DNA of 39,403 bases. Source: Muribaculaceae bacterium (GTDB taxonomy: Bacteria > Bacteroidota > Bacteroidia > Bacteroidales > Muribaculaceae). This document shows, piece after piece, positions 30,644 to 33,735 of the stretch. The stretch's first letter is position 1. Every line of letters starts with the position of its first letter. Below the pieces are notes generated by a model, which ran no database searches, was not told the origin of the DNA, and saw only the letters and a program-made list of their open reading frames with translations. Position numbers and translations under genes: made by a program. The DNA lies in assembly GCA_017396945.1 (NCBI GenBank), contig JAFQKI010000005.1, positions 1-39,403 on the forward strand, in the 5' to 3' direction.

Positions 30644-31177
30644 ATGATTCTAAACGAACGTGATAGCCGCCACGAGCATCTGCTCGCGGCGGCTCGTCAA
30701 ATAATGACAGCGGCTCGCACTGCCCCAAAAGCCAAAGGTGTTGATATCATAGAAATTGCTCTCATCGAGGGTGACGACCTTATTGTTTTGTCCGACAAGA
30801 TGGTCGCTATGGTAGAGGAACACGGCATGAAATTTTTCTTACGTGATGCCGAAAACATCCGTCAGGCTGAATGTGTGATTATTATTGGCACTCACCAACT
30901 TCCTCATGGACTTAACTGCGCTCATTGTGGCTACTCTACTTGTACTGACAAGCCCAACGGTGTCCCTTGCGCAATAAACTCTATTGATGTGGGCATCGCA
31001 ATCGGCTCGGCTTGCGCTACTGCCGCCGACTTGCGCCTTGATACTCGCGTATTATTCTCTGCCGGACTTGCGGCTCAACGCCTCAACCTACTCCCCGACT
31101 GCACACAAACGTTTGCAATCGCAATTTCTGCATCATCAAAAAATCCTTTCTTCGACCGTAAATCCCCCAACACTTAA
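30644..31177 (+). CDS. DUF2148 ferredoxin-domain protein
   Basis: 177 residues. Cysteines cluster in GLNCAHCGYSTCTDKPNGVPC, consistent with an iron-sulfur binding site of DUF2148 proteins, followed by the conserved NSIDVGIAIGSACATAADLRLDTRVLFSAGLAAQRL. The N-terminus (LNERDSRHEHLLAAARQIMTAARTAPKAKGVD) resembles the start of related redox-like proteins. Function not established. It follows queA by 29 bases and ends 3 bases before the repeat that bounds the DUF559 element. Confidence 0.85.
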   Translation: MILNERDSRHEHLLAAARQIMTAARTAPKAKGVDIIEIALIEGDDLIVLSDKMVAMVEEHGMKFFLRDAENIRQAECVIIIGTHQLPHGLNCAHCGYSTCTDKPNGVPCAINSIDVGIAIGSACATAADLRLDTRVLFSAGLAAQRLNLLPDCTQTFAIAISASSKNPFFDRKSPNT

Positions 31178-31180
31178 AAT

Positions 31181-31243
31181 TTATATCGCTTTACACACGC
31201 CCCCGGCTCTACGAGCCACCCCCTCTAACTTAGAGGGGGAATA
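31181..31243. repeat. Palindromic repeat type A, left copy
   Basis: 63 bases, 61/63 identical to 31731-31793 in the same orientation. It contains a hairpin GGCTC-TAC-GAGCC (31205-31217) and a perfect palindrome with arms CCCCCTCTAA (31219-31228) and TTAGAGGGGG (31230-31239). One of the two differences from the other copy is in the loop of the first hairpin, so pairing is preserved. Confidence 0.9.
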
Positions 31244-31294
31244 CACGGCTATGTCACATTGTTGAGCAGACAGTGCGGTCGTAGCAAGTGAACT

Positions 31295-31338
31295 CCTCCC
31301 CTAAGTTAGGGGAGGTGCCCGGAGGGCGGTGGAGTGTG
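31295..31338. repeat. Palindromic repeat type B, inverted relative to type A
   Basis: Palindrome with arms CCTCCCCTAA (31295-31304) and TTAGGGGAGG (31306-31315), hairpin GCCC-GGA-GGGC (31317-31327), then a G-rich stretch ending in GTGTGT. It has the same plan as the reverse complement of type A: CTAAGTTAG core, hairpin, G-rich part, GTGTGT. The DUF559 gene ends inside it. Confidence 0.8.
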
Positions 31339-31719
31339 TCCTATTTTATCTTTACAAAGATGTTCTTGAGTCTCTTTTATTAATGCTAATACCATTTCAG
31401 GGCTTGACCACAACTCTCTATTCTCTAATCGCAGGACTGTTATGCCGTGATTCTCTGATAAATACCGTGTGCGTTGAGCATCTGCTTCGAAACCAACCGC
31501 TGTATAATGTGCTGCGCCATCCAATTCTACACATAATCCGGTCTTTGGACAATAGAAATCAAGAACATAATCCCCAATTGAAAATTGCCTACGCCATTGA
31601 AATCCGTCTAATTTCCGTGACTTTAATGCTGTCCACAACACAGCCTCGGCTGCGGTACTATTACTACGCAACTGACGCCTGATTTCTTTGCTTGATGACA
31701 AATTATGTGTTCGTTTCAT
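31306..31719 (-). CDS. DUF559 endonuclease-like protein within REP-like repeats
   Basis: 137 residues. The DUF559 domain has a Vsr/PD-(D/E)xK-like fold: helix KEIRRQLRSNSTAAEAVLWTALKSRKLDGFQWRRQ, then IGDYVLDFYCPKTGLCVELDGAAHY with acidic residues in catalytic-type positions, and RTRYLSENHGITVLRLENRELW. The stop codon and the last ten residues, ending TPPPSGHLP, come from the type B repeat. Unlike most genes here it has a strong Shine-Dalgarno, AGGAGG (31724-31729) 4 bases before the ATG, which suggests foreign origin. The biochemical activity of DUF559 is not established; DNA cleavage is inferred from fold. Confidence 0.85.
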   Translation of the reverse strand: MKRTHNLSSSKEIRRQLRSNSTAAEAVLWTALKSRKLDGFQWRRQFSIGDYVLDFYCPKTGLCVELDGAAHYTAVGFEADAQRTRYLSENHGITVLRLENRELWSSPEMVLALIKETQEHLCKDKIGHTPPPSGHLP

Positions 31720-31730
31720 ACTACCTCCTA

Positions 31731-31793
31731 TTATATTGCTTTACACACGCCCCCGGCTCTATGAGCCACCCCCTCTAACTTAGAGGGGGAATA
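31731..31793. repeat. Palindromic repeat type A, right copy
   Basis: Same orientation as 31181-31243, with 2 mismatches in 63 bases (31737 and 31762). It lies immediately upstream of the DUF559 Shine-Dalgarno and 10 bases past the kinase stop codon, where its CCCCCTCTAA/TTAGAGGGGG palindrome may also act as a transcription terminator. Confidence 0.9.
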
Positions 31794-31803
31794 TCTGCTC
31801 CGC

Positions 31804-33735
31804 TTATTTTTCTGTGACCGGGCGCACCGTGAGACCGAAGTCGCGGCCGTAGCTGCACATGTTGTGATTGCCACTAATGAAGTACAAGCCCCATGCGTGG
31901 TCGGTATCGCTCTCGTCGAGCGTAGAACTCCAGTAGCTGCCTTCGCTACCCACGCTGAAGGACGACGTACCGCCGCGTAAGCCCGCAGCGGGCAAGAAGA
32001 TAGAGTTACCATTAGGGCCCGTAACCTTATAACCGCTATGGCCACCCTCTGTAGTCCATGTCCATGTGCATCTGTTTTCGAGTTCCTCCCACTGCGCCTT
32101 GGTAGGTAGCTTCCATCCGCCTCCCCATTTCTGACGAGCGACATCATAACGTGTGCCGGCGATATTTGAGCCGATATTATGATAATTGTCCCAATTCCCA
32201 TCGCAATGAGTGTATGTGCTCCAACGATAATCGCTCTTGGTGGAAGTCTCACCCCAGGCGTAATATCCGCCGTAATCACCGGGAGAAGATGCCCCAACAT
32301 TGCGGTCTGCCCAATAGACAGAGAGTCCGAGATCAACAGCCTTGTCGGGCAAGCGAGACGACGCGGCTGCCTGCTCGGCTGCTGAAATCGCGCTATCACA
32401 TTTGGATATCAACGCATTGATTTCATTGCGATGACTCGGATAACTATTAAGCATTGACTGACAAAGCTGTTTACAATCATTGTATTTCTTCTGATTATAC
32501 ATGTTCAATGCCTCGGAATAAGCAACTGAATAGCCATCATCTACACTCGCATCGACCACCTCGACTTCAGGAACTATAGGAACAACCGGAGCCTCGGAAA
32601 CCAGAACGCTGTCAATTTGTTTAACTGTGTCCGCCGAAGTTGAACTAATGTCATCTGAGCTACCGCCGAAGATGTTGCCATTCTTAAACAACCATGTCAA
32701 TAACCCCGCTAAAATAAATACCCCTATCAACGACACTACAAGCAACACGCGACTGCGACGGCGTTTTTCTCGCTCTCGCGCCTCTTCTATCGAAATGGTG
32801 CCACCGGGATTAGGAGTCAGACTCGGCTGTGGTCCAGGACCGGGCGGAGTAACGCCACCTCCGCCGCCATTGAGGATGGCACGAAAATCTGCAATAGATT
32901 GGGGACGGGCGTTAAAGTTGTTCTGAACCGATGCTTTTACCACAGCGACAACCTCCGGCGACGCCTTAAAATCAGGCAGACTGCCGGTAACGGCAATCTC
33001 GCTCGGATCGGGTGGCGTAATGCCGGTTATCAATTTATACAAAGTGGCACCAATGGCATAGATGTCGGTGTGACGTCCCATCAAGTCTCGTTTGCCCGAC
33101 ATCTGCTCTATCGGGGCATAGCCCGGCGTACACGCGATGCCGGTAGAGAGCGACAACGACTTGCCATCGACCGTCTCCAACTGCTTGCTCGCGCCAAAGT
33201 CGATTACTATCGCCTTATTGTTCTCATTGATCATCACATTGCTCGGCTTGATGTCAAGGTGCAGTATCCCTGCATCATGAACCGCCTCTATCGCCGACAA
33301 TACCTGCTTGATATATTGCACCGACTTTTTTTCATTGAGTTGACCGTCACGCAACATATCGTCAAGAGACTTACCGCGTACATAGTCCATGACATAATAA
33401 GCGGTTCCGTTCTCCTCAAACTCGTCGCTCACTTTTACCACACCTGGATGATTTATCGCGCGCAAGCGTGCTGCCTCTTTGCGGAATTTTTCTTTCTGCT
33501 TGCGAAAGAGCGCTCGATTTTCGGCAACCGAAATCGACACTTGGCGGTCGTCACTCTCGCGCTTGCAAATCCCGGAGATAAACAATTCCTTAATCGCCAC
33601 ATGGCTACCCTCGTCAAGATCCTCTGCCTCATAGGTGTTCCCGAAACCTCCCGATGAGAGAAAGCGCAATATCTTATAGCGATTGTTTAATATCAGACCA
33701 TCTTGCAGATGCCGTTCCTTTTCTGATTCTGACAT
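31804..33735 (-). CDS. Transmembrane Ser/Thr protein kinase with extracytoplasmic FISUMP domain
   Basis: 643 residues. Residues about 20-290 are a Hanks-type kinase: glycine loop LSSGGFGNTYEAED, ATP-binding Lys49 in VAIKE, catalytic HLDIKPSN (Asp161, Asn166; HLD in place of HRD), DFG (Asp179), and APIEQ in place of APE. A Gly/Pro-rich linker (about 290-312) leads to one membrane helix (about 329-350). The outer part has a helical TPR-like segment (about 403-455) and a C-terminal FISUMP domain (about 465-640), with VDLGLSVYWADRNVGASSPGDYGGYYAWGE and YWSSTLDESD ending in LTVRPVTEK. This suggests a receptor kinase sensing an extracellular ligand. The outer-domain part is visibly richer in G+C than neighbouring genes. 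Substrate unknown. Confidence 0.88.
   Translation of the reverse strand: MSESEKERHLQDGLILNNRYKILRFLSSGGFGNTYEAEDLDEGSHVAIKELFISGICKRESDDRQVSISVAENRALFRKQKEKFRKEAARLRAINHPGVVKVSDEFEENGTAYYVMDYVRGKSLDDMLRDGQLNEKKSVQYIKQVLSAIEAVHDAGILHLDIKPSNVMINENNKAIVIDFGASKQLETVDGKSLSLSTGIACTPGYAPIEQMSGKRDLMGRHTDIYAIGATLYKLITGITPPDPSEIAVTGSLPDFKASPEVVAVVKASVQNNFNARPQSIADFRAILNGGGGGVTPPGPGPQPSLTPNPGGTISIEEAREREKRRRSRVLLVVSLIGVFILAGLLTWLFKNGNIFGGSSDDISSTSADTVKQIDSVLVSEAPVVPIVPEVEVVDASVDDGYSVAYSEALNMYNQKKYNDCKQLCQSMLNSYPSHRNEINALISKCDSAISAAEQAAASSRLPDKAVDLGLSVYWADRNVGASSPGDYGGYYAWGETSTKSDYRWSTYTHCDGNWDNYHNIGSNIAGTRYDVARQKWGGGWKLPTKAQWEELENRCTWTWTTEGGHSGYKVTGPNGNSIFLPAAGLRGGTSSFSVGSEGSYWSSTLDESDTDHAWGLYFISGNHNMCSYGRDFGLTVRPVTEK

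Follow-up and report, generated by a model that had tools for sequence, protein, structure and literature searches.

DUF559 nuclease-like genes between REP-like two-hairpin units: a candidate small mobile element in several bacterial groups

The window analysed here is the whole of a 39,403-nucleotide stretch of DNA from a Muribaculaceae bacterium (assembly GCA_017396945.1, contig JAFQKI010000005.1). It includes a small nuclease-like gene of the DUF559 family together with three REP-like units, lying between a DUF2148 gene (ending at 31177) and a gene for a protein kinase (ending at 31804). The coordinates are given in Table 1. The kinase (31804-33735) is of the eukaryote type and it is its C-terminal end that is weakly similar to Lcl_C. 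A similar gene end adjoins a REP copy at G000:C6:79876-79979 (locus L002).

Table 1. Components of the DUF559 locus in the window (R2 is the model of the REP units of the genus, described in the text)
Feature	Position	Strand	Basis
Extra REP-like unit (direct copy 1)	31181..31243, core 31193-31239	-	Repeat comparison; R2 match L001:1558-1587 -
Likely left REP-like end of element (third, diverged unit)	31293..31339	+	R2 match L001:1669-1698 +
DUF559 (PF04480) nuclease-like gene, 137 aa	31306..31719	-	Pfam
Likely right REP-like end of element (direct copy 2)	31731..31793, core 31743-31789	-	R2 match L001:2108-2137 -

A first-pass annotation of the sequence described the gene as enclosed by two direct 63-base repeats. 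Comparison of the two copies bears out the repeats, which are identical at 61 of 63 positions with a spacing of 550 nucleotides. A third repeat, which it had placed in inverted and diverged form at the 3' end of the gene, was also recovered; this one runs into the DUF559 ORF and supplies the codons for its final residues. By reading, each unit combines two hairpins, one large and GC-rich and the other small, with a G-rich tail, in agreement with the two adjacent palindromes originally noted, and the stem of the small hairpin covaries within the genus (see below). One of the two differences between the direct copies (C at 31212, T at 31762) falls, as had been reported, within the loop of the small hairpin. 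The nearest unit on either side of the gene points its tail towards the gene, in the arrangement REP(+)-gene-REP(-). The gene is enclosed by palindromes as proposed, but the direct pair does not appear to form its ends: these are likely to be the inverted pair composed of the third unit and the core of direct copy 2, with direct copy 1 as an additional unit. The [-][+]gene[-] layout of the window is also found at three other loci (L016, L017 and L018, with a weak right unit, E 0.09, in L017).

The window ORF is a member of PF04480 (E 7.2e-29; 100.3 bits against a gathering cut-off of 20.6). In an alignment of 26 sequences, residues E25, D54, E65, D67, G68, H71 and D80 never vary. Among solved structures, the 'Endonuclease-Like Protein' 3hrl is detected by sequence (E 1.5e-14) and with two profiles (1.5e-36 and, for the second, 2.3e-29). 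The 'Mobile intron protein' 3r3p is detected by profile (E 5.6e-6; second profile 7.9e-4), the similarity spanning the catalytic half. PvuRts1I gives profile E values of 4.6e-5 and, with the second profile, 3.6e-4. Profile comparison with Vsr (PF03852) is weak (hhalign probability 48%, E 1.8e-4), as are the matches to DpdF. The conserved acidic and histidine residues and the solved nuclease-like homologue are those expected of a PD-(D/E)XK or Vsr-like nuclease, to which the predicted protein conforms. The gene is under purifying selection: of nine DUF559 gene pairs, eight have dN/dS values of 0.08-0.21 (with dS above 1 in five of these) and the ninth is saturated. The E. coli protein YcjD is listed in the PD-(D/E)XK superfamily, and a YcjD profile is reported to detect Vsr (PMC1189080). 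The Caulobacter protein VsrA (CCNA_02930), which carries a DUF559 domain, is described as necessary for the DNA-damage response when a methylase is lost; the term 'palindrom' does not occur in the main text of that report (PMC12907096).

To determine how commonly DUF559 genes are accompanied by such repeats, 350 nucleotides on either side of each gene were compared with each other in both senses, using other ORFs from the same loci as controls. The set includes 70 loci, to which 15 of 40 further DUF559 records contributed. Seven were left out because of short flanks, leaving 63 scorable loci. Two of 28 DUF559 places (L034 and L035, contig-end fragments) were not scored, and minus-strand loci from the genomes of relatives were scored unturned, with one edge displaced by about 20-40 nucleotides. 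At 52 of the 63 loci the flank-to-flank repeats outscore 95% of the 317 control ORFs (p 5e-27), and at 53 of 63 they do so against 98 size-matched controls, ORFs with lengths of 80-180 aa (p 2e-20). In a smaller first set, 48 of 55 loci were scorable, with 268 controls (p 1.9e-23). These p values overstate independence since the locus set includes the window itself (L019) and near relatives (for example, L021 and L029). A homologue regularly lacking repeats, which the first-pass annotation had named as evidence against its proposal, is thus not what is seen. The score does not exceed 30 at 11 of the 63 loci (L010, L011, L024, L025, L031, L062, L101, L104, L108, L110 and L112); it is above 30 for 17 of the 317 control ORFs. 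None of 30 Vsr genes has a flank score above 29, whether or not the loci are turned to the gene strand. At L104 (Photobacterium), a 105-aa control ORF has a flank similarity of 230 due to an unrelated strong repeat; the DUF559 gene there has no two-sided repeats.

Loci above the control level belong to eight groups: Bacteroidota (for example, Dokdonia), Acidobacteriota (Bryobacter), Verrucomicrobia, Kiritimatiellae, candidate division WS1, Pseudomonadota, Deinococcota and Cyanobacteriota. The grouping follows the titles and taxonomy of the records. This distribution, in at least eight bacterial groups, suggests that REP-flanked DUF559 genes represent a class of mobile DNA that is widely distributed and has attracted little notice.

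The units are dispersed. The 63-nucleotide unit of the window has four matches in its own genome, so that it does occur elsewhere, and none in 11 genus mates. For a broader search, a model (R2) was built from REP units of the genus, taken from next to the DUF559 genes of all eight genus genomes in which DUF559 was detected. It finds at least 11 matches in the window's own genome (including those of the window) and at least 301 across 12 genus genomes; these are lower bounds since at most 120 candidates were scored per genome (at most 150 for the second model, R1, introduced below). Beyond the genus, two out of 49 further relatives, namely G027 and G031, have R2 matches, and G027 is the sole genome with a detected DUF559 gene among 25 same-family genomes outside the genus. 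The co-occurrence of REPs and DUF559 at the family level (9/0/5/23, p 1.6e-5) was set aside as circular: it arises largely by construction because of the way in which R2 was built, and G027 is the only independent genome in the count. REPs are present with DUF559 undetected in four of the 12 genus genomes. A higher REP copy number in the DUF559-positive genus genomes was also considered, and the difference is not significant (p 0.06). No Rfam family was found for the REP-like units of 18 loci.

The small hairpin of the genus units covaries, with a score of 0.571 compared with 0.169 in shuffles (0 of 500 as high, a count that is not a probability because the 15 distinct rows are related), and the score is lower when the stem is slid. 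Cells changed on both sides number 19 compared with 7.6 in shuffles. Five measures were taken in all, and two of them (pairs changed on both sides and further pair types) are unexceptional, with 215 and 223 of 500 shuffles as high. For the second stem, in five Erythrobacteraceae-type genomes, covariation is 0.087 against 0.025 in shuffles (1 of 500), and the same two measures are again unexceptional in the sphingomonads (285 and 285 of 500).

The orientation of the units follows a rule. Within the genus, '+ gene -' is observed at eight of 10 loci; L023 has it on one side only and L020 runs against it. A second model, R1, describes the Erythrobacteraceae-type unit and has 625 matches in 13 genomes, of which 150 are listed and were used to count layouts. 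Among these listed matches there are 23 neighbouring pairs within 700 nucleotides, all 23 in the sense '+-'. Eight are long (447-489 bp overall) and 15 short (115-159 bp). A DUF559 frame lies inside all eight long pairs, five of them known beforehand and three newly found; the short pairs are too small to include one. In the genus, neighbouring gene-less REP units occur in both senses (by reading). Three gene-less short units in G215, and two in G211, have a common spacer and are unlinked in position; the gene-less unit therefore seems to spread as a whole. We rejected the idea that gene-less units are deletion derivatives: their spacers are unlike the interior of four full elements.

Some units lie inside genes. 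In Bryobacter (L036:250-2451) a unit is inserted in frame within hsdM, splitting the N6_Mtase domain and leaving an open frame of 733 aa. In Kiritimatiellae (L043:1-1308 and L055:1784-3418, the latter cut by a contig end) a unit also lies within hsdM, at a position other than that of L036. An hsdM gene with an in-frame DUF559 and REP-encoded linkers could possibly encode a fused nuclease-methylase. A gene-less REP pair is present in frame in truB in G209, G211, G212 and G208 (L212, L213, L214 and L216) and is absent in G210.

The type of REP is related to the lineage of the gene. Twenty of 22 sphingomonad DUF559 genes could be typed (L058 and L105 were excluded, as they are without a motif by pattern). 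Both REP types are found at none of the 20, and L060, L062 and L196 carry the type on one side only. Placed on the DUF559 protein tree, REP type requires two changes; the figure for shuffles is 6.9, and none of 500 is as low. In this tree about half of the inner forks are weak, and L042 and L062 form long branches. Genomes G213, G214 and G215 contain both types, each gene with its own, and REP type thus follows the gene and not the host. The same is seen in G220, with L062 one-sided.

Insertion polymorphism with defined ends, as expected of a transposable element, is seen at three junctions, where filled and empty states occur in related species; two of these are reciprocal. All such comparisons are between species. 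The junction flanked by an aminopeptidase-like gene on one side and a GH13-like gene on the other (by reading) is filled in G003, G006 and G008 (699-768 nucleotides, with three REPs and DUF559) and empty in G011 (121 nucleotides). At the ETF-QO/ispE junction (by reading) the element is present in G209, G210 and G211 (482-491 nucleotides); the site is empty in G208 (35 nucleotides) and G220 (about 120 nucleotides), and G212 has a different neighbour. The crtI-like/LOG-like junction is filled in G208 and G212 and empty in G210, where stop and start codons overlap; G209 and G211 have a different neighbour. The last two sites are therefore reciprocal between G208 and G210. No R1 match occurs at the loci with empty sites L132, L138 and L160, and no R2 match at the G011 locus. 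The element starts at, or only a few bases away from, a stop codon and ends with GGGGAGGA right before the next start, so that it may supply the ribosome-binding sequence of the following gene. No consistent target-site duplication was found on reading the junctions and gene-less units. A proposed empty site in S. meliloti was discarded: the query has no counterpart in the 3.7 Mb record, apparently a chromosome filed as a plasmid.

The arrangement in the window is not fixed among relatives, fixation being an outcome that the first-pass annotation had named as refuting its proposal: in the 11 genus mates no DUF559 gene was detected adjoining DUF2148, and other sites have the empty counterparts described above. 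On the downstream side of DUF2148, 10 of the 11 (G004 was left out) have neither DUF559 nor the kinase gene of the window, so that no orthologous queA/kinase junction offers itself as an empty site. In G002 (L123), REP units without DUF559 lie downstream of the orthologue of this DUF2148 gene; in G003, G005, G006, G008 and G011 a gene starts a few bases past DUF2148, with no REP there.

How does this element compare with known systems? REPtrons are characterised by dispersed palindromes in pairs, an enclosed gene and solitary units. They are described with one gene lying between units of its own type, the palindromes being dispersed and often paired, with solitary units as well (PMC3733652). 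The DUF559 element resembles REP/REPIN-RAYT systems in its dispersed, often paired, intergenic palindromic units, in having its gene between palindromes that belong to a dispersed family and in its solitary gene-less units. It differs in its enzyme, which is of the PD-(D/E)XK type with no Pfam Y1 match, in its unit of two hairpins and a G-rich tail, and in its size, the whole sphingomonad element with its inverted ends measuring 447-489 bp. The window's own genome (64% complete) has no match to a Y1/HUH transposase (PF01797). Without the Y1 enzyme the element falls outside the REPtrons, although it would work in a similar manner; mechanistically, it may be nearer to homing nucleases.

CGTC-tagged REPs are reported in the same source to be dispersed in several phyla, mostly as head-to-head dimers, without a dedicated transposase (PMC3733652). 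They share with the units described here their dispersal as palindromes in several phyla, and we asked whether DUF559 might be their missing partner. This was rejected: strict units (CGTC, stem of at least 6, CCA) do not occur within 400 nucleotides of DUF559 at any of 70 loci, and 16 are found at 800 nucleotides or more. The sphingomonad type B units share with them only the CGTC head and CCA (by reading), and CGTCAT[TC] within 600 nucleotides of DUF559 at 25 of 70 loci is about the chance expectation by arithmetic.

The family of 3r3p is one that we take to be Vsr-like ('EDxHD') homing endonucleases. DUF559 genes differ from these in lying within REP-ended units at many unrelated sites, with no intron or intein. 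Vsr itself shows a weak profile likeness and its genes are without palindromic flanks. No paper linking DUF559 or YcjD to such repeats was found among those examined in an open-licence PMC library.

We interpret gene and palindromes as a single mobile unit, REP(+)-DUF559-REP(-), moved by nuclease-driven cutting and repair, and give this reading a probability of roughly 0.64. In such a scheme the REPs would be the two-hairpin ends of the unit, and DUF559, presumed to be a small nuclease of PD-(D/E)XK type with Vsr-like and intron-homing relatives, would cut DNA at or beside the REP hairpins. Host repair or replication would then copy the REP-bounded segment to a new site, often past a stop codon or between genes. 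Use of the REP ends in trans would allow the spread of REP and REP-spacer-REP units without the gene. The association, the layout of the ends, the conserved stems, the insertion polymorphism, the dispersed gene-less units, the purifying selection on the gene and the co-segregation of REP type with gene are properties of the sequences themselves and are consistent with this scheme. That DUF559 mobilises its own palindromes had been proposed in the first-pass annotation; association, co-segregation and homology agree with it, while its action on the REPs and the cut-and-repair route are what we infer. Against the mobile-unit reading, a hydrolytic nuclease alone cannot join strands, and several of the results above also count: the loci with low flank scores and the controls with high ones, the genus genomes with REPs and no detected DUF559, the gene-less spacers unlike full elements, the want of a clear target-site duplication, and the exceptions L020 and L023. 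The broader proposal is that there is a RAYT-independent class of REPs, in which two-hairpin palindromes are moved by homing-endonuclease-like DUF559 through cut and repair ('hairpin homing') in at least eight phylum-level groups including E. coli, with gene-less pairs moved in trans and occasional in-frame insertion. We consider its chances to be evenly balanced.

A different possibility is that a homing-type DUF559 gene invades existing REP pairs, and that the REPs spread otherwise and serve as recognition or homology sites. This would accommodate the profile similarity to the solved 'Mobile intron protein', the '+-' ends common to full elements and gene-less units, and spacers in the latter unlike the interior of the former. 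However, the empty sites examined have no REP model match, and gene and REPs were therefore gained together, or in two unseen steps. REP type also tracks gene lineage, and no Y1 transposase match was found in 19 of 25 genomes, Y1 being the only REP-moving enzyme included in the search. We regard invasion as unlikely, although deserving some weight. The palindromes might instead be REPs of the ordinary kind, mobilised by a RAYT (Y1) transposase encoded at another place in the genome, with DUF559 unrelated. In favour of this, the paired-palindrome plan is like that of REPINs. Y1-family matches are present in six of the 25 REP-bearing genomes, but the 19 with none include the window's own and G208-G212 (several are incomplete), and it is to this explanation that we give the least credence.

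Palindromes acting as terminators or mRNA stabilisers might also simply pile up in non-essential intergenic DNA, where a small dispensable gene is tolerated. REPs do far outnumber DUF559 genes, and some lie at gene ends (by reading). Such passive hitchhiking does not account for control ORFs, size-matched ORFs and Vsr genes being mostly without such flanks, for the inverted arrangement of all neighbouring pairs among the sphingomonad matches listed, with DUF559 in every gene-sized pair, or for each gene lineage keeping its own REP type inside one genome; we judge it improbable. Nor is it at all probable that the DUF559 nuclease serves in mismatch repair, restriction or defence, with hairpins that shape expression and movement that is incidental. 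The role in the DNA-damage response given for Caulobacter VsrA in PMC12907096, the hsdM fusions, the weak matches to DpdF and PvuRts1I and the cyanobacterial plasmid loci amid toxin-antitoxin-like, DUF1156 and DUF499 genes are in its favour, but it leaves the end layout, the empty sites and the co-segregation unexplained, and other DUF559 loci lie in metabolic operons.

Several individual loci are worth recording. In Deinococcus psychrotolerans (L102:4983-5336) a DUF559 element with strong inverted ends lies within the phenylacetate operon, between paaD and paaZ. The surroundings of DUF559 on two cyanobacterial plasmids (L101 and L103) are defence-like, with toxin-antitoxin-like, DUF1156 and DUF499/DUF3883 genes; strong repeats are present at L103 and missing at L101. 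A faecal phage contig (L107, MT835749.1 7696-14016) carries a DUF559 gene with palindromes close by and is a possible transfer vehicle. At L010 and L013, DUF559 lies within long open frames.

REP-like palindromes are common in bacterial genomes. If the mobile-unit reading is true, a share of those outside the RAYT-linked families would be explained by a dedicated, widely conserved partner enzyme of another class. With a length below 500 bp and a hydrolytic nuclease as its sole requirement, the unit would rank with the smallest autonomous elements. A function would be given to DUF559 proteins, E. coli YcjD among them, and the question would become testable in laboratory K-12.

In K-12, ycjD (b1289) lies between sapF and fabI. 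At the E. coli locus L110 three palindromes, which we take to be 'box C', are located 3' of ycjD (by reading). The order of DUF559 gene followed by palindromes is like that of the element; the differences are that the repeats are on one side only (flank score 28) and that no clean empty site was found in the two genomes examined that are without ycjD. The sapF-ycjD-fabI query is held at 80% or more in 3361 of 5426 genomes. A clean empty site at sapF/fabI was sought in two of the others and rejected: both have an efflux operon instead, and such an operon is described as the other allele at this site in PMC12817139. The 61-base stretch that includes the first palindrome has similar places in 5351 of the 5426 genomes, 72,880 in all, with a median of 16.
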